Source: a virus
DNA: 20,679 nucleotides
IMG/VR virus record: IMGVR_UViG_3300032356_000014
Coordinates: 1-20,679 of that record
Reading direction: 5' to 3' (one strand)
Every line of letters starts with the position of its first letter. Position 1 is the first letter of the stretch. The notes below the pieces were generated by a model, which was not told the DNA's origin, did no database searches, and saw only the letters and a list, made by a program, of their open reading frames with translations. A program made the translations under genes and the position numbers. This document shows, piece after piece, positions 1 through 12,195 of this stretch.

Positions 1-117
1 ACCTGTGGCCAACCCTATAACCATCAGGCTGACGAATCCCGTCCACACATGCATTCCCAACGCTGCCAAGATCGCAAGTGGCACGACATATCCCAGGAGT
101 CTGCTTCTGTTTGTCAT
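1..117 (-). CDS. Small membrane protein, N-terminal part (runs off the window)
   Basis: An open frame starts with ATG at 117 and reads 39 codons to the first base of the window without a stop. The peptide begins MTNRSRLLGYVVPLA and is hydrophobic from about residue 7 to 39, with a positively charged start. This fits one or two membrane segments, N-terminus inside. A purine-rich stretch (GGAAAGGCGAAG) lies upstream of the ATG, a fair but not ideal SD. It lies 126 bases downstream of the cyclotransferase on the same strand, so it may belong to the same operon. The family cannot be named from 39 residues. A holin or other small membrane protein is possible, as is a chance open frame. Confidence 0.4.
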   Translation of the reverse strand, partial: MTNRSRLLGYVVPLAILAALGMHVWTGFVSLMVIGLATG

Positions 118-243
118 CTGTCTTCGCCTTTCCGGCCGTCTCAGCTGCGGCCCTCTGTCATGGTTGCTGTGTGATTCATGCCTCCAATGCGCTGGTCATA
201 CGACGCTACAACTACCAGTATTTCAACGGGTTGTCGCACTCTG

Positions 244-732
244 TTACGGCCATTGTGTCTTGTTCGTCGGCCGCGCATTTCGGATCAGGCTGCCGCAACC
301 AACATAGCACCAGACCGACAGGACACTGCCGCCGGTCGCAGCGGGCACCAGCACTCGGCGGTATGTGCTGTGCATACCACGGAAGCCCTCCAGTTGGTCA
401 ATCGGGGGCAGGGACATCTGAGGATCGCGAAGAGTAATGATCTCTCCTCTTATCATATGCCAGTCGGTCTCATCACGGACCGCGTCAACTATCAGGTCCG
501 CCGGGGTGCGTTCCTGTGTTGCGACATCCGCCAGCGGGTCCAATGTCCCGACCGCGAGGATGTCGCTATCCGGCACTCTCAGCACAGGTATCCCCGACGG
601 GAGTTCGTAGAGCCTACCTCGCACTGTGACCTCCTCAACGAAGACCGCAGACCGGCAGTAAACCTCGTGATTCCAGTAGCCGCGCTTGAGCGTGCCGTAG
701 ACGAATAATCGGAATAGGTGGTTGTGGCTCAT
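244..732 (-). CDS. Gamma-glutamylcyclotransferase-like (AIG2/GGCT fold) protein
   Basis: This 162-residue protein opens with FRLFVYGTLKRG (residues 7-18), the hallmark nucleotide-loop-like motif of the AIG2/GGCT fold. It continues with VRGRLYELPSGIPVL (37-51) and LEGF (114-117), which match the fold in order and spacing. Known family members cleave gamma-glutamyl-amines to 5-oxoproline and a free amine, for example GGACT and BtrG of butirosin synthesis. I do not assign the catalytic Glu with certainty. The start at 732 is chosen because its ATG overlaps the TGA of the amidotransferase (ATGA) and the YGTLK strand then lies near the N-terminus, as is usual. A longer open frame extends to 864 but would add 44 residues lying inside the previous gene. 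It is the last enzyme of the amidoligase cassette and is probably co-translated. Substrate unknown. Confidence 0.85.
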   Translation of the reverse strand: MSHNHLFRLFVYGTLKRGYWNHEVYCRSAVFVEEVTVRGRLYELPSGIPVLRVPDSDILAVGTLDPLADVATQERTPADLIVDAVRDETDWHMIRGEIITLRDPQMSLPPIDQLEGFRGMHSTYRRVLVPAATGGSVLSVWCYVGCGSLIRNARPTNKTQWP

Positions 733-1526
733 ATCGATACGCCTCTTTTGGCTGTCGCCGCTCCGGCTTGAGCCACGAAGTCGAATGGTATCCGGCGAGA
801 TCTGGCAAGACCATAGCAGCTCAGCACACAGATCGTCATTGGTTTGAGCGTCAGGCGTTCCCAAACGGCAACATCCGCCAACGCCGCCTGCAGATACTTC
901 CCGGACGACGCATAGAAAACAGCGTCCAGCTTGGGGTGGTATATCAGTTCCAACGGCTTGTTACCCTTGATGATGACCACGTTGCCGGGATCGCTCTTCG
1001 CCACAATGACCGCGCTCATCTGGCCGCGACACAGGGCGAGACGCTCGCGGAGGGCATTCACGTCTATGCAGCCGTCGGCAATGCAGGCGTCCGCAATCCG
1101 CCCAATGATCTCGCTGTCTACCTCGGCATGCCTGCTGAAGCGGAACCGATGGAATAGGTAGTCGGCGTTGAGAATCGTGCCATTGTGAGTCACCAGGCAG
1201 TTGCCGGTCCGCAGTGGATGGTTGTTCTCGTTGACCGCAGCGTTGCCCCGGGTCACGAAGCGGGTGTGGCCCATCAGCACGGTGACTCTGTTATCCACGT
1301 CGCCCAGCACCTGCCCGAAAGCCTTGTCACGCACAAACTGGCTGGCCGGAAGCGGCCTCTTGAACAACCTGTGCTCGCCGTCTCGGTTCACCCAGGCAAT
1401 ACCGGTCGCGTGCGGTCCGCGCTCCTTGCTGAGTTCCAGAAGCCTGGTGAACACCCAGGTCAGGTAGTCAATCTCCTCTTGCGTGCGTCGCTTGGCTCCG
1501 AATATCACTCCTGCTTGTCCGCACAT
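729..1526 (-). CDS. Class II (Ntn-type) glutamine amidotransferase
   Basis: This is a 265-residue single-domain protein. Residue 2 is Cys (MCGQAGV), the N-terminal nucleophile exposed after Met removal in class II glutaminases. Other matching motifs are ERGPHATGIAW (35-45), GHTRFVTRGN (86-95, the Arg that binds the glutamine carboxylate), NNHPL (101-105), THNGTI (113-118), VDSEII (136-141) and FYASSGK (204-210). These follow the order found in GlmS and PurF glutaminase domains. No synthase domain is fused, so it would hydrolyse glutamine and hand ammonia or a glutamyl group to a separate partner. The obvious partner is the adjacent amidoligase. The start lies 22 bases inside the upstream small gene, behind AAGGGGGTGAG, and its stop overlaps the next ATG. 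YafJ-like or phage-type stand-alone GATases are the closest description. Confidence 0.9.
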   Translation of the reverse strand: MCGQAGVIFGAKRRTQEEIDYLTWVFTRLLELSKERGPHATGIAWVNRDGEHRLFKRPLPASQFVRDKAFGQVLGDVDNRVTVLMGHTRFVTRGNAAVNENNHPLRTGNCLVTHNGTILNADYLFHRFRFSRHAEVDSEIIGRIADACIADGCIDVNALRERLALCRGQMSAVIVAKSDPGNVVIIKGNKPLELIYHPKLDAVFYASSGKYLQAALADVAVWERLTLKPMTICVLSCYGLARSRRIPFDFVAQAGAATAKRGVSI

Positions 1527-1744
1527 CCGGACTCACCCCCTTCCGTTGCCTCGAAGCCTCTGAAGATGCCCTCGGCATACTGCTTCCTGTTCTCGTGCAC
1601 CCAGAGCGCCGTGGCGTAATGCTCCATCTCATATGCAAGCTCGACTACCATGGGCACGTCAAGCATGTTGGTCTTGCCGGAGAGCCTGACTGCTTTCAGA
1701 CCCTCCAGCACATCAGCCGGGATCGGCACCTTAGTTCGCTCCAT
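1505..1744 (-). CDS. DUF5049-like small protein
   Basis: This 79-residue protein starts with MERTKVPIPADVLEGLKAVR, followed by SGKTNMLDVPMVVELAYEM and then KQYAEGIFRGFEA. The pattern of IP..(I/V)LEG(I/L)KAVR, G.TNM.D and a final FRGFE resembles DUF5049, a short phage protein family of unknown function. That assignment rests on recalled motifs only. The ATG at 1744 follows GGAGGT at good spacing. An upstream in-frame ATG at 1831 lies within the amidoligase exon and has no comparable SD. The gene overlaps the end of the amidoligase by 14 bases and the start of the amidotransferase by 22, so it sits between two enzymes of the cassette and may be an accessory subunit. Confidence 0.75.
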   Translation of the reverse strand: MERTKVPIPADVLEGLKAVRLSGKTNMLDVPMVVELAYEMEHYATALWVHENRKQYAEGIFRGFEATEGGESGCADKQE

Positions 1745-1894
1745 TGCCCACCTCCGATGTCTCGACGGCAGGCTTCGGGTTCGTCGGCTTCGGCCTGCCG
1801 TTTTTCCAGGCGGCGTCACCCGGCATCGCATTCAGGAGATGCTTTCTGGCGGTCTTGAACTCGTCGCCGATCAGTCCAAGGTGAAGGAGGAACA
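1731..1894 (-). CDS. Amidoligase, 3' exon (C-terminal 54 codons)
   Basis: This exon lies immediately downstream of the intron 3' end (CCCTAT at 1900-1895). It encodes FLLHLGLIGDEFKTARKHLL and then MPGDAAWK and a Pro/Lys-rich tail ending EVGNGAN before TAA at 1731. The LGLIGDEFKTAR and GDAAWK segments are what I expect at the C-terminus of phage Amidoligase_2 proteins, and no start codon or SD precedes them here. The first two bases (TG) complete a split codon with G4192, giving GTG (Val). Joined to the 5' exon, the coding length is 939 bases, exactly 313 codons with the stop. The end overlaps the start of the DUF5049-like gene by 14 bases. Confidence 0.8.
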
Positions 1895-1957
1895 ATAGGG
1901 TCGAAGGAGGGCGCGTTACCGGTCCGAAGACCGGCACGTTTCCCTCCAGCGCCCTCC
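1895..1957 (-). ncRNA. Group II intron domain VI and 3' splice site
   Basis: Read on the minus strand, this segment forms GGAGGGCGC paired with GCGCCCTCC, with an inner CCGGTC-TTCG-GACCGG hairpin. It then ends TTCGACCCTAT. An A seven bases from the end (1901) matches the branch-point position in Ll.LtrB, and the terminal AT fits the AY consensus. The stem geometry is read by eye, and the exact bulge was not modelled. Confidence 0.7.
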
Positions 1958-1991
1958 GAACCGTGCGAGCGGCTTTCACCGCACACGGCTC
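1958..1991 (-). ncRNA. Group II intron domain V
   Basis: The minus strand reads GAGCCGTGTGCGGTGAAAGC followed by CGCTCGCACGGTTC. This is the standard 34-nt domain V: the catalytic AGC triad in GAGCCG, a lower stem GAGCCG/CGGTTC, a two-base bulge on the 3' side, and an upper GCGG/CCGC stem capped by a GAAA loop. All core features needed for catalysis appear present, so the intron is probably splicing-competent. Confidence 0.92.
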
Positions 1992-2008
1992 TCCAGAAAC
2001 CACTGGTA

Positions 2009-3607
2009 TCACCAGTAGAGACCTCTATAGCGAAGTCGGCCTTTGTCGGTGATATCCCGTGCCAGCTTATGCAGCGATTTGCGCGGAACGGATGCGCAGA
2101 CCAGAAAGACTGTGCGCTCGACGCCACTCTGCAGGGTCGTTGTCGCACACCAGGTTTTCTGCCCGCCCCGAGGGTTACTCGGTTGCGGCGGACATCTGCG
2201 TATCCAACGCTGCGCTGCTTGGCTCAGGTACATCTTGTGCTTGCGGCCCAGGTAGCAACCGTATGCCCAGAATGTATGGTGTAGCACCTTCTGGAACACG
2301 TGGGCTGGGGCTGAAGCACAGGCGTAGTAGTTCATCCAGCCGGTCAGCTTTGCGTTGATTCGGCGGATGATATCTACCTCGTCGTCCTGAACCCGTTGGC
2401 AAAGGTCCCTGACTTGCTGTATTGTCTCCCGGGCGGAGTCATAGGGGATGACCAACTTGACCCGTGGCGTTTGAGTCGGGATTCTCTGCCTGGCCACCAT
2501 CTTGTAGCCAAGGAAGATGAATCCGTCGGTGATGTGGGTGATTGTTGTCTTCTCCGGGCTTAGGACCAGCCGGAGATTCTCCCACAGCCATCGAGTCAGG
2601 TCTTCTTTCATCTCCTCCGCTCTTGCCTTGGAGAGGTTTCGCAGTACGATCACCCAGTCGTCGGCGTACCGCACATAGGTGAGCTTGGGCTTTATCGGTT
2701 CCTTCAGATACGGGGTCTGTTTGCGCTGCGCTATAAGATGCCACAGCCGCGCACGCAGTTCTTCATCGGTGCCATCCGGTTTCTGTTTGCCGGCAAGCAT
2801 CTCGCGGATACGCTGGATCTGCCCCCCGATACGGTTGTAGTCGGGGTTGGTCCTGGCGTATTTCTCCTGGGGTGTCTGCGGCTGTTGCCGGTTGGCTCCA
2901 TAGGTTTCCTCGATATACCTGTCCATTTCGTGCAGGTATATGTTGGCAAGAACCGGTGATACGATCCCGCCCTGTGGCGTACCGACCTTGGTCGGGTTCC
3001 ACATGTCCATCTCGAAGTATCCTGCCTTCAGGAACTTCGCTATGAGCTTCAGGAACCGGTCATCACTGATGCGCTTCTCAAGCAGGCGCAGCAGGATGCT
3101 GTGGCTGACATTATCAAAGAACCCTTCGATGTCGCCCTCAATAACCCAATCCATCCTTGCCTTCGGATAGTTGTAGACGGCGTGGAGCGCCGTGTGGCAA
3201 CTGCGCCCTGGTCTGAAGCCGTGTGAGCAGTCCAGAAAGACCGGCTCATATATGGCCTCAAGAACCAGCTTTATGGCGCTTTGCACCACCCTGTCCGAAA
3301 ACGTGGGTATTCCAAGCGGTCGGAGCTTCCCCGACTTCTTGGGGATGTAGACGCGCCTTACCGGGTACGGCGTATAGGTGCCGTCTTTGAGCATTGCTGC
3401 CACCCTTTCGGCTTCGGCGGGGTTCCAGTGTTGCTTGGTCTTACCGTCTACGCCGGGCGTGTATGCCCCCTTGTTGTCTTCTATCTGTTCGTAAGCGAAC
3501 ATAAGGAAGTCCACCTGTGTGATCTCCCGGAACAGTCGGTCAAACCGCTTGTCCGGGTTCTGCTTGGCAAGTCTTGCCAGTCTGTGAATACGATGAGCTA
3601 CGATCAT
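2009..3607 (-). CDS. ltrA: Group II intron reverse transcriptase/maturase (LtrA-like, no HNH domain)
   Basis: This 532-residue protein has RT0-RT1 with AYEQIEDNKGAYTPGVDG (39-55) and RRVYIPKKSGKLRPLGIPTF (84-103). It has SHGFRPGRSCHTAL (128-141), the catalytic Asp region VIEGDIEGFF (155-164), GTPQGGIVSPVLANIYLHE (209-227) and the catalytic YADD (314-317). A maturase domain X follows, with LTGWMNYYA (421-429). The pattern is closest to Ll.LtrB LtrA among families I can recall. The C-terminal 60 residues contain no CxxC...H...H HNH endonuclease motif, so retrohoming would have to use single-stranded DNA at replication forks or another nick. The ATG at 3607 follows GAGAGGA about 11 bases upstream. 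The protein would assist splicing of this intron and act in its mobility. Confidence 0.95.
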   Translation of the reverse strand: MIVAHRIHRLARLAKQNPDKRFDRLFREITQVDFLMFAYEQIEDNKGAYTPGVDGKTKQHWNPAEAERVAAMLKDGTYTPYPVRRVYIPKKSGKLRPLGIPTFSDRVVQSAIKLVLEAIYEPVFLDCSHGFRPGRSCHTALHAVYNYPKARMDWVIEGDIEGFFDNVSHSILLRLLEKRISDDRFLKLIAKFLKAGYFEMDMWNPTKVGTPQGGIVSPVLANIYLHEMDRYIEETYGANRQQPQTPQEKYARTNPDYNRIGGQIQRIREMLAGKQKPDGTDEELRARLWHLIAQRKQTPYLKEPIKPKLTYVRYADDWVIVLRNLSKARAEEMKEDLTRWLWENLRLVLSPEKTTITHITDGFIFLGYKMVARQRIPTQTPRVKLVIPYDSARETIQQVRDLCQRVQDDEVDIIRRINAKLTGWMNYYACASAPAHVFQKVLHHTFWAYGCYLGRKHKMYLSQAAQRWIRRCPPQPSNPRGGQKTWCATTTLQSGVERTVFLVCASVPRKSLHKLARDITDKGRLRYRGLYW

Positions 3608-4191
3608 TTGAGGTCTTGTCCTCTCGTTAGTTTAGGTATTCACTGGTCTCCTGGCCCCCTTCGCTCCGTGAGCATTACCTCACATCACAGCTACTATGGG
3701 GCCTCTGCCGTCTGATGGGCATTCCCTCGCTAACAGGGTCAACCATCCCACCAGACTTCTCCGGTAGCTAAGTGCGCATTTGTTCGATGAACTTAGGCTT
3801 CTCATTTACGCCGTTGGCATGCGATGCATACCTGTTGGAGCCGGGCGTTGGGGTTGGACAGCCCATTGCCCTCGGTTCAGAGTGTCCCTTTCATGTGTCT
3901 TCGCGTAAAGCACATTTAGACTCCAGCACCCCGTCGGCTTGGTGAGGTGCCCGTACGATTCACGGACAGACGTTGAGATTCAGCCAGTCTAGGCTTAGCC
4001 ATATTCATCTGCCTTGAGGAACCTCTACAGCGGCCAAAGCCCGCCTGTGTTCCCCGTTGTCCCGCGAGAGCTTGCCGCCCCGGACCGGTTATGCGGTCCG
4101 ACACGTCGCGGTAGGTCGTGCCTCTGTCCAGGCACGATGGTTTAGGCTGCTAATGCAGCCCCACTTACGCACTTAACCCGAACGGACGCCC
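3608..4191 (-). ncRNA. Group II intron 5' structured region (domains I-III and start of IV)
   Basis: These 584 bases lack a convincing gene and form the 5' ribozyme part of the intron. Local hairpins are visible on the minus strand, such as GGGGCTGC-ATTA-GCAGCC near 4150 and GTGCCTGGACAGAGGCAC near 4120. The stretch CAGACGGCAGAGGCCCCATAG near 3700 looks like domain III of LtrB-type introns. A five-base exact complement (CCCGG, 3845-3841) to the last five 5' exon bases CCGGG is a candidate EBS1, but this is unproven. The short open frames here are not considered genes. Confidence 0.75.
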
Positions 4192-4966
4192 CCCGGAAGT
4201 CATACTTGGCGCTGGCGGGATTGAACTCCCGCTTGCGGCTTGATGCTCCTCTGCTGTTCAGAGCCTTCGCAGCGATGGCAAGCACGAACTGAATGGCGGC
4301 TTTCACCTTGCCAGCGTGCAGAGTAGCCTGGAACCATCGGAACTCGACGGTGCCTCGGTACCAAACGTTGTGCAGATTCACACCGTGGTACCTCGTCTGA
4401 TCGTAGTGCTGCGGGTGGTGATTGTGGTAGCCGTACCAGATGCGGTTCATCTGCTCGCGGGTCTTTGGACGGCTGCGCTCTATCTTGGCGATGAGTTCCG
4501 AACTGACCGGCTTCGTGTAGTTCCTGAGCCTCGATTCCTCGACACCGAGCGCTGTCAATATCAGCGGCTCCTGCTTGTGCACGATCTTGGCAAGGTTGCC
4601 GAGGGTCTTACCATCAAAGGCGGTCGCGTCAACGTGAATGTGGATGCCGCACTTCTGGTCGACGGTAGCTCCGCATCCGCGGATCGCGCGCACCACCTCT
4701 TGCAGCGTTTGAATATCTTCGTAGTTGAGGACCGGCGAGACCACCTCGGACCTGAGATTGGCCGGCACGCTTGTTAGTGAGGAGTCGGCAACGACCATCC
4801 ACGTTCGGCCTCGCTCATCGACTACGTGCCAGGGATCGTAGCAGCTTGGGATTCCGACGTGCTCGACGCTTACTCCCACCACGGACTGGATCGCGCGAGC
4901 CACGTCCCCACGGCTCCGCTTGATAGTTTCGATCTCGACCCCGAACCTGAGTTCCTGGAGTTTCAC
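4192..4966 (-). CDS. Amidoligase (COOH-NH2 ligase, Amidoligase_2 type), 5' exon
   Basis: This exon encodes residues 1-258 of a predicted 312-residue ligase of the glutamine-synthetase-like fold. Visible family features are RFGVEIET (7-14, metal-binding Glu strand), [15 protein letters not shown] (71-85), [10 protein letters not shown] (105-114), [13 protein letters not shown] (124-136) and [12 protein letters not shown] (205-216, acidic/Arg strand). Family members are thought to join a carboxylate and an amine using ATP. The GTG start at 4966 follows CGGAGGT at seven bases. If the transcript is not spliced, translation continues 16 codons into the intron and stops at 4142, giving a 274-residue protein lacking its conserved C-terminus. 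The exon ends in the codon series for KYDFR plus one G, completed by TG from the 3' exon. The substrate is unknown; neighbours suggest glutamine-derived ammonia or a gamma-glutamyl conjugate. Confidence 0.85.
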
Positions 4967-5129
4967 TTCTCGACCTCCGAGTTTGAGAACTGGCAGAAAA
5001 CATGTTTGGTGTTCCTGCTGTTCAATGAATGCCTCAAACCCCAGGAAACATCAAGTCTAACGAGCCGGATTTCCGAGGAATCTGGTGTTCTTTTTCAGGC
5101 GTGGAATGATTGGTGCAGGGGGTAACGGA

Positions 5130-5402
5130 TCACCCTGGGATGGCCTCGCCGTGGTCAATACCGGCATCGAGCAGGGCTTCGTTTAGCCACTGGACGTGCG
5201 CTTCTTCGCGGGTGATCCTGGCCATCACCGCCGTGAAGTCGTCGGATAGGTCCATCGGCAAACCGACTGCCTCCTCTATTCGCCGAATTCTGGCATCGAG
5301 GTTGGCGAGCAGGTCGAGCACGTGGTTTCGGATAACGCCATCTCGCTTTTCGGAGGGCGATGGGATGAACTCGGTCATCCCGCCGCGTCGTTTGACCAGC
5401 AT
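5130..5402 (-). CDS. Small helical protein following the large tail protein
   Basis: This 90-residue protein begins MLVKRRGGMTEFIPSPSEKR, followed by a largely helical region with HVLDLLANLDARIRRIEEAV suited to a coiled coil. It ends ALLDAGIDHGEAIPG. The ATG at 5402 sits seven to eight bases after GAGGAG and 11 bases after the stop of the 1203-residue tail protein, so it is the next gene of the same transcript. An open frame upstream of this ATG lies inside the tail gene and is not used. No family recognised. It could be a short fibre, chaperone or trimerising accessory for the upstream fibre, but that is only position-based. It is the last gene before the 163-base gap that precedes the amidoligase. 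Confidence 0.75.
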   Translation of the reverse strand: MLVKRRGGMTEFIPSPSEKRDGVIRNHVLDLLANLDARIRRIEEAVGLPMDLSDDFTAVMARITREEAHVQWLNEALLDAGIDHGEAIPG

Positions 5403-5413
5403 TATGCTCTCCT

Positions 5414-8400
5414 CTAGCTCAAGGTCGCGCCCAGGGAGTGGATGCGCAGGTAGATCAGGTTGTTGCCGGTCATCACGGCCTTGTACCTCACGCGGTTGCC
5501 GGTGGGGTTGGTGAACGCCCGCAGGAACACATACTCCGTCCAGGTCTGGTCCACTTCGCGGGTAGTATCCAGAGTCATCGGCTCCCAAGTCTCGCCGCCG
5601 TCGTTGGAGGCGAACCAGTTTATCGTGCAGCCACTGGGGATACTCATCTCGGCGTAGACCTTGGTGGATTCAACGCCCTGGGTAAGCTCGTTCTCGCGGG
5701 AGATGTAGGTCCCCTCGACGCCGTTCAAGTAGCCGATGAGGTTCACATCCTTGTAGTTCAAGGCTGGGGTATCGTTCGGGGCGTTGCTCGTGAGCCTGGC
5801 TCGAACAAGAACCCGAGTGGCGATGTTGGGAAGCCGCTCTTCCTCGGCGGGGACTATCGCGTCCCAGGTGACACCACCATCGGTCGAGTACTCCCAGGTC
5901 ATTCCCGTCCCTTGTGGAATCGCGGAGTACTCGTCCAGGTTCAGATCGCTGAACTGCACGCCGGTTACTTGCTGAAATCGGATTTCCCCGGAAGCCGCGA
6001 AGTCATACCCGTAGATGCGCATGTTGAGGTCCGAGCCGTTCAACGGAGTCCAGGTCTCGGCGTTGGAGCTTTCAAGCAGCACGCCCTCCGCGTATGTCTG
6101 GCGAGTGATGACGCCATTTCTGCCCATCTGACCGAGGCTGGCGATGCGGACTCGGTAGTTCGTGGAGTTGGTGAGCAGCACCACGGCGACGCTCTGGTTG
6201 GCCTGGACATAGAACGGATCGTTGAAGACGACCTTGGTTTCCGCGTTGAGGGCTATCTCCGACGGTGCGACGACCTTCTCGGCAAGAACCGTCTCGTTGG
6301 GGAGGCCGGTGGTGACGCCGCGAATCTGGACTGTCACTGGAATGGATGCGTCCTTTCTCGTGAAGTACAGCCCTATAGCGGAGAGCATGCGGTTCTGGGT
6401 GAAGCTGAATGTCTGCGCGAGCGGGTCACGCCGGGTGCGGGCAGGCACAGTGCGCCAGACGATTCGCTCGACCGGCACGCGGATGATCCGAGGTTCGACT
6501 TCACGGATGATCGTCTGTTGCTGGACGATTGTCTGTTGCTGGATGATGGTGTTCGTGACCTCGACACGCTCGATTCGGGTGACAACCAGCGGATCGTTAA
6601 CCTGCAGCATCGCCTGGGCGGAATACGTGCCGTCGGTCATCTCGACGATCCGGTTGCCGTTGTGTGCCGTTTCGGGGATGGTGAATGAACACGTCACGCG
6701 CCCGGCTTGGTCGGAATGGACGTCACTTGCCACGACCTGGCCGTCGCATCGAACGGTGATATTGGTAACACTGGGCGTGAAGTTCGAGCCTGTGACGGCG
6801 ATTCCTGTCTGCCCACTGCGGCCAATGTTTGGCGTAACCTCTATCATCGCCGGCGGCTTTTCGAAGACGGCATAGGGGTTGATATTCTTCTCCTCTGACC
6901 AATCGAGCTGCTCGACGAGCACGCGCTCCGTTGCCGGAAGCAAGGCCAGACTTCCCCTGAATAGAGCGTTGCTGTGCGCCTGGTCGACCTCGAGCACCCG
7001 GGGAGTGGCGGTGCGGCCTGGGGCGACGAACTTGCGAACGCCATCGATCCGTGCGCTCCACTCGGAATGGAACACATCCGACTGGGCTTCGTTCGAGAAG
7101 TCGTCGGAGTAGATTCCTTTCTTGGTCTGGGCGTCCCGGTTCTGGAGATTGTTGTTCATCTGGTACTGGGCGTCGTTGTATTTGAGATCCTCCACATCCT
7201 GCATTACCTGGTGGATCTGGGCCATGGTGATCCGGTTCAGGCCGAAGTTTCGGACGGTCATTTCCACTGAGTTCGGCGGGCAATCCACGCTGGCGAGCGC
7301 AAGAGTGCCCTCCGGCACTATCGGGAGCTTCGGAAAGTCCGAGGGTGCACCGTCGATGTGCAGGATTTCCCTGGCAGTCGCATAGATGATGTCTTTGCGG
7401 CCGAGGTAGTAGTCGTAGTCCACGCTGCAATTCGACCCGCTGACCGGATCACTTCCCACACCCGTCCTGCCGAAGTTGATGACGCTTGTGTTCCCCAATA
7501 CTATCTCAGGCACGGGCTGCGAAAGCCCGCTGGAGTTGGATGAGGGCGGGCTACTTGTCGTCGTCTCGTCCACTCCATCGTCTGCGTAGGAAGTCACTCC
7601 CGGGCCGAGTTCTTTGAGCCGCTTGAAGCTGGTTCGGCCCGTATTGGGCGACGCACGGTATATGCGATAGCCTGTCGCGCCGTTGATCGGTCTCCACGTA
7701 ATAAGGTTGACATCTCCCGCGGCGGTCTGGCGCGAGACGACTCGGCCGCCGATGTATTCCGTCTCGCCGGATGCCGAGAGCGCCGTGACTACATAGTGGT
7801 ACTGGGCGGCCGCCGGATACCCCGACTGTCCGAACCACCCGCCGTCGACGTAGTCCGTGCCCTTGACCATCTGCTTCACGTAGGTCCAGCGAACCGTATA
7901 TGTCGTGCCTATGGCTGGTTCATTGCCGGAGCCGAGCCAATCCACGTTGTTGCCGGACTGCTGCCAGTCGGTTCCTTCCGTGAATATGGTAGCCCCCTGG
8001 CTGACCTCCAGAATGTCGACAACCGGATTGGGTCTGAGCAGGTCTTCTCCGCCTCCGACCGATCCGCGAGTGACGTTGGCGGTTATCTCGACGATTGCCT
8101 CGACCTGGGTAGTCTCCTCGAGAGGAGAGCAGTTCAGAGCATAACGACGCTGATTGACGTTATACGTCTTCTGCTCGCCGCGCACGGACTTCGTGGCGAC
8201 CGATTTGGGCACGGTGGTGGTTGTAGGCAGGTCTTTCTGCAGACGGAACCCCTGGATATAGGCGCGGCCCGCGTTGGTGACGACCTGGACGCTTGAGCCA
8301 TCGTTGCCGCCGATGAAGCTGTCAAACCCACGCACCAGGTAGCTCCCAGCCTGGTCATAGGTGCGTTCCGCGAGGTTCTGCAAGAGCGAGTTCAAGCCTT

Positions 8401-9025
8401 CGGCCGCCGCGAAGTTGAGCTGGTCCTCGGTGATGGACGACACCGTGATCCTGCTGCCGGGGAGCGTGCCGAGTAGGTCGCGCAGATACATGTTCGACTT
8501 CTCTTGGATCGTAGCAGTAACTTCGCCGGTCTCGCGGTCGAACTTGTAGATCGGGACGACCTTGCGCTGTGTGACGTTGTTGGGAAGCGCATCGCCTGAA
8601 GTATCCCGCTCGCGAAGCACGAGCACCCACTTCTCACGCTCGGCGGTCGGCTCCCCGGTCGCAGGATTGATGAGCATGGCGTCCTGGTTATGGGTGTAGT
8701 TGTACTTCAAAAGCTCGACGTAGACGTAGTCGACGCCGCTAGTCTTGGCGGGATCGTAGGTGAGGGTCGCGCCCGGCACCTGCTCTATATGGCCGTCGAT
8801 GTAGACCACGCCGACTGAGAGCATGACAACGTTTCCTGCCACCTGGGGCACGAGGCCGCCGATGATCGCGCCTTCCTTGAATAGTAGATCGGCCAGCTTC
8901 TTGCGCTCGCGGATCGCGATATCCTGCTGTTCGTTCAGTTCCGAATCCAGCAGGTCGCGGTCCTGGTGGTAGCGAACCCGCTTGTAGTTCTTGGCCGGGT
9001 CGAATGTGTCTCTGGATATGGACAT
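5414..9025 (-). CDS. Large DUF4815-type tail/fibre protein with fn3-like and IPT/TIG-like regions
   Basis: This 1203-residue protein is the largest in the window. The N-terminus, FDPAKNYKRVRYHQDRDLLD (8-27) then SELNEQQDI, matches the DUF4815 pattern of phage tail proteins. About 405-475 is fn3-like (YHYVVTALSASGETEY, then ATGYRIYRASPNTGR). About 725-810 is IPT/TIG-like (IEVTPNIGRSGQTGIAVTGS). A short tandem repeat TIIQQQ-TIVQQQ-TIIREV lies near 825-840. Near 870 RRDPLAQTFSFTQNR begins a jelly-roll-like segment typical of structural proteins. The C-terminal third carries repeated strands with STDGGVTWDAI and SNDGGETWEPM (Asp-box-like). The ATG at 9025 follows AGGAGG. Its role is probably a baseplate-attached fibre or host-contact protein, by position after gpJ/gpI and the collar-like protein. 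No enzymatic domain was identified. Confidence 0.85.
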   Translation of the reverse strand: MSISRDTFDPAKNYKRVRYHQDRDLLDSELNEQQDIAIRERKKLADLLFKEGAIIGGLVPQVAGNVVMLSVGVVYIDGHIEQVPGATLTYDPAKTSGVDYVYVELLKYNYTHNQDAMLINPATGEPTAEREKWVLVLRERDTSGDALPNNVTQRKVVPIYKFDRETGEVTATIQEKSNMYLRDLLGTLPGSRITVSSITEDQLNFAAAEGLNSLLQNLAERTYDQAGSYLVRGFDSFIGGNDGSSVQVVTNAGRAYIQGFRLQKDLPTTTTVPKSVATKSVRGEQKTYNVNQRRYALNCSPLEETTQVEAIVEITANVTRGSVGGGEDLLRPNPVVDILEVSQGATIFTEGTDWQQSGNNVDWLGSGNEPAIGTTYTVRWTYVKQMVKGTDYVDGGWFGQSGYPAAAQYHYVVTALSASGETEYIGGRVVSRQTAAGDVNLITWRPINGATGYRIYRASPNTGRTSFKRLKELGPGVTSYADDGVDETTTSSPPSSNSSGLSQPVPEIVLGNTSVINFGRTGVGSDPVSGSNCSVDYDYYLGRKDIIYATAREILHIDGAPSDFPKLPIVPEGTLALASVDCPPNSVEMTVRNFGLNRITMAQIHQVMQDVEDLKYNDAQYQMNNNLQNRDAQTKKGIYSDDFSNEAQSDVFHSEWSARIDGVRKFVAPGRTATPRVLEVDQAHSNALFRGSLALLPATERVLVEQLDWSEEKNINPYAVFEKPPAMIEVTPNIGRSGQTGIAVTGSNFTPSVTNITVRCDGQVVASDVHSDQAGRVTCSFTIPETAHNGNRIVEMTDGTYSAQAMLQVNDPLVVTRIERVEVTNTIIQQQTIVQQQTIIREVEPRIIRVPVERIVWRTVPARTRRDPLAQTFSFTQNRMLSAIGLYFTRKDASIPVTVQIRGVTTGLPNETVLAEKVVAPSEIALNAETKVVFNDPFYVQANQSVAVVLLTNSTNYRVRIASLGQMGRNGVITRQTYAEGVLLESSNAETWTPLNGSDLNMRIYGYDFAASGEIRFQQVTGVQFSDLNLDEYSAIPQGTGMTWEYSTDGGVTWDAIVPAEEERLPNIATRVLVRARLTSNAPNDTPALNYKDVNLIGYLNGVEGTYISRENELTQGVESTKVYAEMSIPSGCTINWFASNDGGETWEPMTLDTTREVDQTWTEYVFLRAFTNPTGNRVRYKAVMTGNNLIYLRIHSLGATLS

Positions 9026-9034
9026 GATCGCCTC

Positions 9035-9568
9035 CTAGATCTTGATAACCCCGACGAGCTCCACCCGCGTATCGGATGTCTTGTTGAAATCGGGGATATT
9101 CTTCACCTCGTAGAGGTGGCCGGGTCTTTTCACTTGCCCGGACGGATTTGTCGCCGGGTCATACACGCCGCCCTCGGCGTAGTCGGACTGGTGACCGTCG
9201 ACATACTCGACGTTGCCGCCGAAGAAACCGTATTCGCGGATCGTGACGCCGTTTGCCTCGGCCTCATCGAACCGGAAGAAGACGCCGATGATCTGGGTTT
9301 CCAGCCCGGTCTCGGAGTAGCGGACGCCGTTGACTTCCAGGACTCCCTGCGGGTCTTCGGCGAGAAACGCAATCTTGTAGCATCGCTTCCTTGCGCGCTC
9401 GTGTTTGAGCGCCGTTTGGTCCACGCTCACGTCCGGCGGGTTCATTGGATCAGTGAACGTCTCGTCGCCGTCACCTATGGCGCAGTGTGTTATCCCGTCG
9501 ATGGGATCGCCTTTGAGCAACCGGGCCGTGAGAACGCGGCCGCTTCGTGTTATGAGTCCAAGTGACAT
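9035..9568 (-). CDS. Tail-collar-fibre-like protein (DUF3751-like N-terminus)
   Basis: This 177-residue protein starts MSLGLITRSGRVLTARLLKG and continues ITHCAIGDGDE (26-36) and a Pro-rich NPPDVSVDQTAL. It later has TGLETQIIGVFFRFDEAEAN and IREYGFFGGNVEY. This arrangement (start-of-protein label, thIAiGDG motif, then a strand with REYGFFGG) is that of the N-terminal attachment domain of phage tail-collar and tail-fibre proteins. It appears here as a stand-alone protein, without the long fibre shaft. It would link fibres to the baseplate. The ATG at 9568 is preceded by AAAGGA at seven bases. It lies nine bases before the start of the 1203-residue fibre, with which it likely assembles. Confidence 0.75.
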   Translation of the reverse strand: MSLGLITRSGRVLTARLLKGDPIDGITHCAIGDGDETFTDPMNPPDVSVDQTALKHERARKRCYKIAFLAEDPQGVLEVNGVRYSETGLETQIIGVFFRFDEAEANGVTIREYGFFGGNVEYVDGHQSDYAEGGVYDPATNPSGQVKRPGHLYEVKNIPDFNKTSDTRVELVGVIKI

Positions 9569-9580
9569 CGTGTTGTCCTT

Positions 9581-10480
9581 TCACACTTCTATGATGTGGC
9601 TTTCGCGGAGGATCACCCCAAAGACGGTCTGACGCATGTCGGCGTCCGGCGCAAGTCTCGTTGTCGTCCGTATTTCCAGGTCGGACGCGAGCGCCATCAG
9701 GCAAACGATCACGGCGGCGACGCCACAGTTTGCGATACGGGTATTGCCTATGCGCCAACCCTGATCCGCCTGCAGATAGGCGCTCCTGCCCACGATAGGA
9801 AGAATATCCGACCATTGCTCGATTCCGCCCCATGCGCTCTGCAGGCAGTCGACCAGCCGCTCGATGGAGTTGGAGACGGCGATCCGCTGGTCACCGCCTA
9901 CCGACAGCCTTCCGCTGACGGCGACAGAAATGTCGGAGGCAAGCAGCGTGGGATTCGGCACCGAGATCAGAAGATCTCCGTAGACCGTCCGAAGCGCGCG
10001 GGACCGCAGCGAGAGATCGAACTGCTTCGCCACCGGACGCGCTATCTCGGCACGAACGTCAAGGCTTTTGAGCAGGGCATTCGATACAGCAACGCGCTCG
10101 TCGGCGAGCACATTCCTTGCATTCAGTGCGATGGCCTGCAGATCGCAGCTCTTGGCGAAGGCCGCCACCTCATATATGGCCAGACGTTCGTCGTAGAGGA
10201 CTGCGATGGCTCCCGTGGTCACGATGCCTATATCCGCGGTGACGACGTATGCGCCGTTCACGGCAAGAGCGGAATCCACCAGGATAGACGCTTCCGCTGT
10301 CACCCCGACCGCGCAGTCGATATCACAAGCAATGGGTATCCCGGTCGGCTCGTCAGTGCCGGCGTCGTCTCCCCAGTCCCACACCGAGGCGAGACCGGCG
10401 TTGCGAAACTGGACTAAGCGCGGCGACGCCGCTCCCGCTCTGGGCGTTACGGTAGTTGCTTTGCCGTTACGAGTCGCCAC
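9581..10480 (-). CDS. Repeat-containing probable virion protein of unknown family
   Basis: This 299-residue protein uses a GTG start that overlaps the end of the 44-residue gene by 14 bases. It has an N-terminal Ala/Gly/Thr-rich lead, then alternating short hydrophobic strands with internal repeats: DERLAIYEVAAFAKSCD (97), DERVAVSNALLKSLD (127) and DQRIAVSNSIERLVD (197), with a weaker copy at TVYGDLLISV (165). Spacing is near 30 to 35 residues, which suggests a beta-solenoid or repetitive fibre. The C-terminal part has Trp-rich QSAWGGIEQWSD and an Ile/Ala-rich strand region. No enzyme motif or membrane segment stands out. Position between baseplate and collar genes suggests a fibre or baseplate decoration. 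I do not recognise the family. Confidence 0.7.
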   Translation of the reverse strand: MATRNGKATTVTPRAGAASPRLVQFRNAGLASVWDWGDDAGTDEPTGIPIACDIDCAVGVTAEASILVDSALAVNGAYVVTADIGIVTTGAIAVLYDERLAIYEVAAFAKSCDLQAIALNARNVLADERVAVSNALLKSLDVRAEIARPVAKQFDLSLRSRALRTVYGDLLISVPNPTLLASDISVAVSGRLSVGGDQRIAVSNSIERLVDCLQSAWGGIEQWSDILPIVGRSAYLQADQGWRIGNTRIANCGVAAVIVCLMALASDLEIRTTTRLAPDADMRQTVFGVILRESHIIEV

Positions 10481-10601
10481 GCCTGGTCAGCTTTCCTGCA
10501 ATGCTCTTCGCCTGGCCGCACATGCGGACGATCTTCGTACTCGGGACAAACACACAGGCTTTGCTCTCGACCGGGTTTTGCTTGCCTACTCTCGTTGCCA
10601 T
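10467..10601 (-). CDS. Very small basic protein (44 residues)
   Basis: ATG at 10601, two bases after the TAG of the preceding gene, with GGGAG about seven bases upstream. It reads MATRVGKQNPVESKACVFVP, then STKIVRMCGQAKSIAGKLTR and RGDS, with a TAA at 10467. Two Cys (16 and 28) and many Lys/Arg are present. The next gene starts 14 bases before its stop, so the pair is translationally coupled. Both proteins start MATR-x-GK, hinting at a shared leader or duplication. No family recognised. The tight packing and the absence of any other explanation for the 123-base space between flanking genes support a real gene. Confidence 0.65.
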   Translation of the reverse strand: MATRVGKQNPVESKACVFVPSTKIVRMCGQAKSIAGKLTRRGDS

Positions 10602-10603
10602 AC

Positions 10604-11593
10604 CTACTCCCTGATAGCGAATCCTCTCGTCCCGATGTAGAAGAACTTGTAGGTTATGCCGTTCCCGGCGTCTATCACGTCCTCCGAGACACCCCAGGAG
10701 GTCGATGTCTCATACACCTCGATTAGCTGTCCCCGTATCTCCGACTGGCCTGTAGTAGTGCAGTAGGCCCAATATGGGAAGATGCCTATCAGGTTGTAGC
10801 GGCAGTCGTTTGCCGCGCTGCCATAAGCCCCTCCGGCCGAACCCGCCACTTGGACATCGATCAGCGAGGTGTTCCATCCGGTGTAACGCGAGGCGGTATG
10901 AAGCTGAGTGAGCGCGGTGTCGCTGCGAGACATCATCACCGGAGCCACGTCCTCTCCGACTCGCGTGCCCGCGAGATAGCTGTTCGCAAGAGTCGCAATG
11001 GTAATGGTCTGAGGAGTGGACACCGTGTCGACGGCGGTGACCTGCATCCGCTCGAACTTGTCGCGGTTGATGATCTGGTAGTACAGCCCAGCCTTGAAGT
11101 AGGAAGCGTTGTCAACAGGCACGACGACACCCGAGCCCGCGCTCACGTCGGCCTGGGTTATCGCCATATTGGCCGACCAGTAGCGTTTGACTATGCCGAA
11201 GTGGAACGCCTGGTAACTCGTTCCTATCCGCACCACCACGACTATGTGATCCAGGTCGGCGTAGATCCAGTAAGGGAACGTGGTTGCGTCCTTCGTCGCT
11301 ACGTAGTTGTAGCTCGTGGAACCGGCAGGCAGGACTGCCGCCTGAGTGCCCGGGTTCCACCAGAGCGCGTTCCGCACACATACCTTGTCCGCCGTAGCCG
11401 CATACTTGTCGAAGAGCAGGTAGATCGTCTCTTTTCCTGACTCACCCGACGAGCCTATGTAGAGGAACGGGTTCGCCGCTCCAAGGTCTTCGGCGAGAAC
11501 GGTCCACCCGACCGTGCTTACAATGAAGCTCCTGAACTTCGAGAAGAAGTCGGCCGTGTTGCTGGCTATTCCGCTTGTGCTTCTATATGCCAT
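10604..11593 (-). CDS. Probable virion structural protein, family not recognised
   Basis: This 329-residue protein has no signal peptide or membrane segment. It is rich in Tyr, Trp, Thr and Ser with strand-forming blocks, for example PFLYIGSSGESGKETIYLLF (42-61), HIVVVVRIGTSYQAFHFGIV and DCRYNLIGIFPYWAYCTTTG. This composition is typical of phage beta-rich particle proteins. The ATG at 11593 lies five bases after GAGGT and eight bases after the stop of the upstream gene. The following 44-residue gene starts two bases beyond its stop. Its place between the gpI-like gene and the fibre genes suggests a baseplate or fibre component. No function beyond that is claimed. Confidence 0.75.
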   Translation of the reverse strand: MAYRSTSGIASNTADFFSKFRSFIVSTVGWTVLAEDLGAANPFLYIGSSGESGKETIYLLFDKYAATADKVCVRNALWWNPGTQAAVLPAGSTSYNYVATKDATTFPYWIYADLDHIVVVVRIGTSYQAFHFGIVKRYWSANMAITQADVSAGSGVVVPVDNASYFKAGLYYQIINRDKFERMQVTAVDTVSTPQTITIATLANSYLAGTRVGEDVAPVMMSRSDTALTQLHTASRYTGWNTSLIDVQVAGSAGGAYGSAANDCRYNLIGIFPYWAYCTTTGQSEIRGQLIEVYETSTSWGVSEDVIDAGNGITYKFFYIGTRGFAIRE

Positions 11594-11601
11594 CTCCTAC
11601 C

Positions 11602-12195
11602 TCAGATGATCGGGGACTCGGTGCCGGTGAGCCGCAGCTTGATGTCGGTCTTGTTCTGCACTGGCGTGGCCGCAGGCACGGTGATCCGCCGCCAGAAAGA
11701 GAGCGTCGTGTTGTGGGCCTTGTTGTTGAGAGCAAGTGACGCGCCCGCGACGGCAGCGTCGAGTTCCGGCTGGTCAGCGGCGAGCTTGACCCAGGACGCT
11801 TCGCTCGAACCTACCTCGTCGACGGGCTGTACGGTGAGATCGCTGTATTTGTAGCCGGAGTAAACTTTCGTGCCGGACGAATGGTTGCCCGCGGTAGTGC
11901 CACCATATCCTCGTTCGACGGTAAGCTCCGCCGTTCCGCCGCCGCTTGTGATGAGCATCTGCTCGCTGCCAACTATGATGATCTGGCCGTCCGCGAAGCG
12001 CGCCTCGGCAAGCTGAATTGTGGTAGTGGCTCCGTCGATAGCGGACGAGAGAGTGGTCTGCTCGTTCGCAAGGTAAAGCTGCCGATCCTTGGATTCCCCG
12101 TCAGTCCCGTTGAATACATCCGAGTCGGGGTTCGTGAGGGTGCCCTCGGATATCTGCTGAGTAAGCTCAGCGTCTTTGTAAAGATGGATTGCCAT
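11602..12195 (-). CDS. Probable virion structural protein, family not recognised
   Basis: This 197-residue protein begins MAIHLYKDAELTQQISEGTL and contains DVFNGTDGESKDRQLYLANE. A Thr/Gly/Ala-rich middle, TIQLAEARFADGQIIIVGSE (60-79) and TAELTVERGYGGTTAGNH, reads as a small beta-domain similar in style to phage particle proteins that join onto fibres. The C-terminus has SFWRRITVPAATPVQNKTDI. The ATG at 12195 follows AGGAGGAGAAC, a strong SD. It is nine bases downstream of the preceding gene and ends eight bases before the next. No catalytic motif seen. Confidence 0.78.
   Translation of the reverse strand: MAIHLYKDAELTQQISEGTLTNPDSDVFNGTDGESKDRQLYLANEQTTLSSAIDGATTTIQLAEARFADGQIIIVGSEQMLITSGGGTAELTVERGYGGTTAGNHSSGTKVYSGYKYSDLTVQPVDEVGSSEASWVKLAADQPELDAAVAGASLALNNKAHNTTLSFWRRITVPAATPVQNKTDIKLRLTGTESPII

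Follow-up and report, generated by a model that had tools for sequence, protein, structure and literature searches.

Group II introns are found in phage genomes, but the fate of a gene that carries one is not self-evident: is the gene lost to the insertion, or would splicing return it to the phage? We address this question for an amidoligase gene on the viral record IMGVR_UViG_3300032356_000014 of IMG/VR, of which positions 1 to 20,679 (20,679 nt, hereafter the window) were analysed.

A split amidoligase gene and its intron-free alleles

The amidoligase is the first gene of a four-gene overlapping operon and a group II intron of 2,297 nt lies within it (Table 1). Joining of the two exons keeps the frame and yields 939 nt, which on recomputation corresponds to 312 residues and a stop, as an earlier note on this sequence had stated. 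Without splicing, the amidoligase ORF runs from the GTG at 4966 to a stop at 4142 and encodes 274 residues. That unspliced mRNA stops here and loses a conserved C-terminus had also been claimed; both points stand, with the refinement that the lost part lies outside the Pfam Amidoligase_2 model. This model is complete within exon 1 (residues 5-231; E 8.5e-61 on the exon 1 ORF), so that the part missing from the product of unspliced mRNA is a conserved helical segment at the C-terminus, beyond the model. The PHROG 2443 match spans residues 3-299 of the intron-free allele.

Three intron-free alleles of the gene were found, with identities of 93% (L002), 81% (L003) and 52% (L005). All are collinear with exon 1 and at the intron site read KYDFRVFLLHLGL or KYDMRVFLI, uninterrupted. 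Since these relatives run from KYDFR directly into VFL, the exon join is correct. The earlier note had suggested looking for such alleles in related genomes, where homologues should continue from KYDFR into VFLLHLGL; the alleles do so, and bear out the coordinates and boundaries that it gave for a group II intron splitting the amidoligase gene. Two amidoligase matches in two pieces (H12 and H29) were considered as further split genes and rejected, being tandem amidoligase paralogues.

A second IMG/VR contig, IMGVR_UViG_3300031966_000109 (L097; 27,443 bp), corresponds to the window at its bases 4220-24898 and is nearly identical. The same intron and arrangement are present on it; the comparison covered 8,774 nt and showed 9 differences, of which a single one, a synonymous change in the maturase, lies within the intron. 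The arrangement is therefore very unlikely to stem from an assembly slip or a sequencing error. Comparison of window 1-12000 with named phages gave no near match, and a terminase (PF03354) was not found in the longer contig.

Table 1. Features of the amidoligase locus, in window coordinates.
Feature	Position	Strand	Remarks
Gamma-glutamyl cyclotransferase (AIG2-like) gene	244..732	-	GGACT E 7e-14; overlaps amidotransferase stop
Class II glutamine amidotransferase-like gene	729..1526	-	N-terminal MCG; GATase_6 E 6.7e-13; overlaps DUF5049
DUF5049 gene	1505..1744	-	Start overlaps amidoligase stop by 14 nt
Amidoligase exon 2	1731..1894	-	164 nt; remainder of codon 259 through residue 312, stop codon
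Group II intron	1895..4191	-	5′ GGGCG ... 3′ AU; intron-free alleles, two related introns, D5/D6 match, fold z -4.7
Domains V and VI	1895..1993	-	AGC triad; Rfam RF00029 59.3 bits, cut-off 40
Bulged A of domain VI	1901	-	Predicted branch point; seventh base from 3′ splice site
Intron-encoded RT/maturase	2009..3607	-	532 aa, in domain IV; RVT_1 and GIIM; YADD intact
Domain I	3763..4178	-	Root helix 4178-4166 with 3778-3763
CCCGG, weak EBS1 candidate	3841..3845	-	Intron nt 347-351; would pair with CCGGG 4196-4192
GTGCG decoy	4168..4172	-	19 nt inside intron; paired in domain I root helix
Amidoligase exon 1	4192..4966	-	775 nt, GTG start; residues 1-258 and first base of codon 259

Conservation and predicted fold of the exon 2 segment

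Across 54 viral amidoligases, the best-conserved segment is formed by residues 259-291, 33 residues that are encoded by exon 2. The mean top-residue fraction is 0.72 here compared with 0.58 for exon 1, and G268, R275 and G284 are invariant. The C-terminus that the earlier note described as conserved-looking is thus, up to residue 291, conserved above all other segments. Compared with the L002 allele, residues 259-291 have accumulated 15 synonymous changes and 1 non-synonymous change. By this measure the segment appears to be under strong purifying selection, and most of the substitutions behind the test may predate insertion of the intron.

In the predicted model of the L002 protein (pLDDT 92), the intron site falls in the middle of helix 253-263, whilst helix 269-279 is encoded wholly by exon 2. 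Foldseek matches of the model were 1tt4, 1r8g and glutamine synthetase (GS), and comparison with 1tt4, a glutamate-cysteine ligase, gave a Z of 13.7 and an rmsd of 4.1 for 237 aligned residues, over residues 4-286. Judged from this model, the amidoligase has the glutamine-synthetase-like COOH-NH2 ligase fold common to glutamate-cysteine ligases and GS. Because the intron site is inside helix 253-263, a helix of the folded part would be cut in the unspliced product, and we infer that enzyme function would be lost without splicing. Some activity could remain in this product, given that the Pfam catalytic domain is in exon 1.

The ribozyme and its maturase

The earlier note had called domain V and the 3′ end canonical, and this holds on closer inspection. 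The match to the Rfam model of domains V and VI is above the cut-off, the domain V hairpin with its AGC triad reads GAGCCGU...ACGGUUC, and the intron ends in ...CCCTAT at 1895, in keeping with the AY rule. In the consensus fold of three introns, namely the window intron and its two relatives described below (L097:857-3172 and L016:1418-3720), A1901 is an unpaired base flanked by the paired columns 108 and 110. Amongst these three, 62 of 169 pairs of the 5′ domains and 11 of 35 in D5/D6 carry compensatory changes, in which both sides are altered and the pair is kept. Shuffled sequences fold less well than the 584 nt upstream of the maturase gene (z -4.7). The Rfam model D1D4-1 scored 21.6 bits on domain I, below its cut-off of 35. 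A joint search of the three introns for EBS1-IBS1 pairings found none above chance, the best site (window 3845-3841) scoring 30 compared with a median best of 29 for shuffled exons. An apparent 9-bp EBS1/IBS1 match in the third intron was rejected, as it lies inside a putative hairpin stem.

The maturase is intact and scores 344 bits against TIGR04416, over the equivalog cut-off of 300; the closest solved protein is LtrA (E 1.5e-84). The intron to which LtrA belongs, Ll.LtrB, has in common with the amidoligase intron the AGC triad of D5, the bulged A of D6, a maturase in D4 and the order of the 5′ root helices. However, Ll.LtrB starts with GUGCG and encodes an HNH endonuclease domain, whereas the amidoligase intron starts with GGGCG and is without the endonuclease domain. 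Alignment to endonuclease (En)-bearing relatives shows that the maturase, like its two sisters, terminates ahead of the HNH domain that other relatives possess. The mobility of En-less group II introns proceeds via replication-fork priming. Therefore, any mobility of the amidoligase intron would have to use this route. RmInt1-type introns likewise have an En-less maturase and, by the account in PMC5010178, a mobility relying on replication-fork primers; they differ in host, which is a phage for the amidoligase intron. More than half of bacterial IEPs are without En (PMC4424553).

Related introns in other phage genes

Two introns related to that of the amidoligase gene were identified. The first (L097:857-3172) lies on IMGVR_UViG_3300031966_000109, left of window base 1, where it splits a phage tyrosine integrase gene on the opposite strand to the amidoligase, between ...SKTDQ and RGEGRWVGIP.... 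The exons rejoin in frame, the rejoined integrase aligns without gaps to an uninterrupted integrase at 45% identity, and the Pfam Phage_integrase score increases from 23.8 to 59.2 bits after joining. The second (L016:1418-3720) is found in Lentisphaerae bacterium ADurb.Bin242 within a phage tail-tube gene (Phage_tail_2), again with an in-frame join; the split gene adjoins head-protease and tape-measure genes in a prophage-like region. Thus, all three introns join their exons in frame, and they have the start GGGCGYCCGTTCGGG in common.

The maturases of these introns are 59% (L097) and 52% (L016) identical to the window copy, and the other matches listed are below 50%. Within the Lentisphaerae, a member of the lineage occurs in 1 of 289 genomes of the phylum. 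A narrow maturase scan of bacterial genomes returned no match, and a profile scan returned L016, at 52%, among the matches listed. Likewise, a GGGCGYCCGTTCGGG scan of viral contigs found, among the matches listed, a maturase nearby only at the two introns of IMGVR_UViG_3300031966_000109. A specialisation in phages cannot be claimed from only three members, although all of them sit in phage genes. We consider it possible, but rather doubtful, that they represent a rare En-less lineage with the GGGCGYCCGTTCGGG start that is specialised in phages and that, by occupying the integrase and the first operon gene of one temperate phage, makes both its lysogeny and the operon dependent on splicing aided by the maturase.

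One further candidate, L160 (49% identity over part of the maturase), was rejected as a lineage member because its intron is of the GTGCGCCCAGATAGGG type and lies in a different phage gene. This intron (L160:365-2825) is located near the start of a tail-protein-like phage gene (MATLGLD...), a case that suggests that phage tail protein genes are hit repeatedly by group II introns.

The downstream operon

Three further genes follow the amidoligase, each overlapping the one before it (Table 1). On unspliced RNA, translation would end at 4142, approximately 2.4 kb before the DUF5049 start, and splicing should therefore restore translational coupling. The order of the operon genes recurs in intron-free relatives; DUF5049 is found downstream at 12 of 84 amidoligase loci and the amidotransferase-like gene at 13 loci. 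Going by the families of its members, the chemistry of the cassette would be amide transfer together with gamma-glutamyl ligation and cleavage. Phage amidoligase-amidotransferase-cyclotransferase cassettes were described, according to PMC11318856, by Iyer et al. 2009; the window has the same gene run, its amidoligase belonging to PHROG 2443, the difference being that the first gene of the window cassette is split by an intron. A cyclotransferase gene is also found downstream in L009 (PV036458.1) and L010 (PP197246.1), gut and Terrisporobacter phages that have two amidoligase paralogues (about 245 and 316 residues) close together in tandem.

Proposed mechanism and alternative explanations

We propose that codon 259 of the phage amidoligase gene received a mobile group II intron lacking an endonuclease, that the gene is transcribed together with its operon, and that the maturase made from the intron folds the ribozyme. 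Lariat splicing through branch A 1901, between 4192/4191 and 1895/1894, would then restore a 312-residue glutamate-cysteine-ligase-like enzyme and with it the overlap-coupled translation of the downstream genes. Accepting this explanation means that the intron would splice in vivo, would depend on its maturase to do so and would move at replication forks. Taken as a whole, we regard it as very probably correct.

The alternative that survives best is a recently inserted, splicing-defective intron in an amidoligase gene that is being lost, with exons still intact for lack of time. Such a history would fit the near identity of the two carrying contigs, the EBS1-IBS1 search with no pairing above chance and the deviation of the 5′ end from consensus. 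GUGYG is the textbook 5′ start, found in the vast majority of group II introns but not in all (PMC4424553), and GGGCG agrees with it at four of five positions, with the root helices then following in the expected order. However, all three related introns start with GGGCG[T/C]CCGTTCGGG, the same 15 nt with the exception of one Y position. That two diverged introns in other genes have this start as well makes it a trait of the lineage and not a sign of decay; the shared start also supports, in spite of the non-GUGYG sequence, the 5′ boundary at 4191 that the earlier note had placed there. Moreover, the maturase has stayed intact, the structure is kept by compensatory changes, and the intron family persists in integrase and tail-tube genes that phages need. 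We therefore consider decay of the intron and gene to be improbable.

Less probable again is a regulated switch, in line with the possible control point of the earlier note, whereby splicing would turn on the amidoligase operon, and the integrase via the second intron, only in some conditions. That a single phage carries introns of the same lineage in two of its genes would be in keeping with a switch, as would the uncoupling of overlapping downstream genes in the unspliced state, but no evidence of regulation was seen, neither a sensor nor a conserved regulatory element, and relatives manage without the intron. Lastly, a 5′ splice site at GTGCG (4173/4172), which would produce a different short C-terminus (NVPPSPWTDRRRV...), fits the textbook consensus (PMC4424553) but is barely credible and was rejected: the motif is base-paired within the root helix of domain I and shows no conservation in the sister introns, which marks it as a decoy, and its use would shift the frame to give a product that departs from every homologue. 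A strict 5′ GUGYG rule would thus misplace the splice site here, which matters for annotation.

Relation to known phage introns

The earlier note regarded dependence on ribozyme splicing as unusual for a phage-type gene. This view is outdated, as a 2025 study documented group II introns across phages, including 9,229 positive IMG/VR contigs (Merk 2025, PMC12350094). Given this number, both contigs described here may be in the supplementary list of that study. The introns reported there are of the same kind, in that they lie in Caudoviricetes coding genes and were recognised by D5/D6 and intron-free homologues; that study, too, contains no experimental test of splicing. The main text does not name an amidoligase, nor does it describe the GGGCG lineage or a phage with one intron in the integrase gene and another in an operon. 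Our literature search found no paper in which a group II intron and an amidoligase gene are linked, and PMC11318856 mentions both separately. The latter describes a helicase gene of LM41phi6 that is likewise a prophage gene split by a maturase-bearing intron. Its authors read this as gene disruption, whereas the junction, structure and selection at the amidoligase argue for a gene restored by splicing.

With group II introns in phages already known, the amidoligase intron is an unusually well bounded case with a variant 5′ end. In this clean case the phage would obtain a conserved enzyme only by way of a ribozyme, and natural intron-free alleles are available as controls. Together with the sister intron in the integrase, the locus permits a direct test of whether group II introns are a cost to phages, are tolerated by them or are put to use.

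Two minor observations were made on the same contigs. Between the integrase and the cyclotransferase gene, L097:4336-3635 is an ORF of 233 aa with an HD-hydrolase-like motif (HDIGRYIENEY...HHH). At window 17175-17096 the Rfam family P10 (Pseudomonas sRNA) scores above its cut-off inside a same-strand ORF (17273-17010) whose translation resembles a PAAR-type spike-tip protein, and thus the P10 family may in part be coding sequence.
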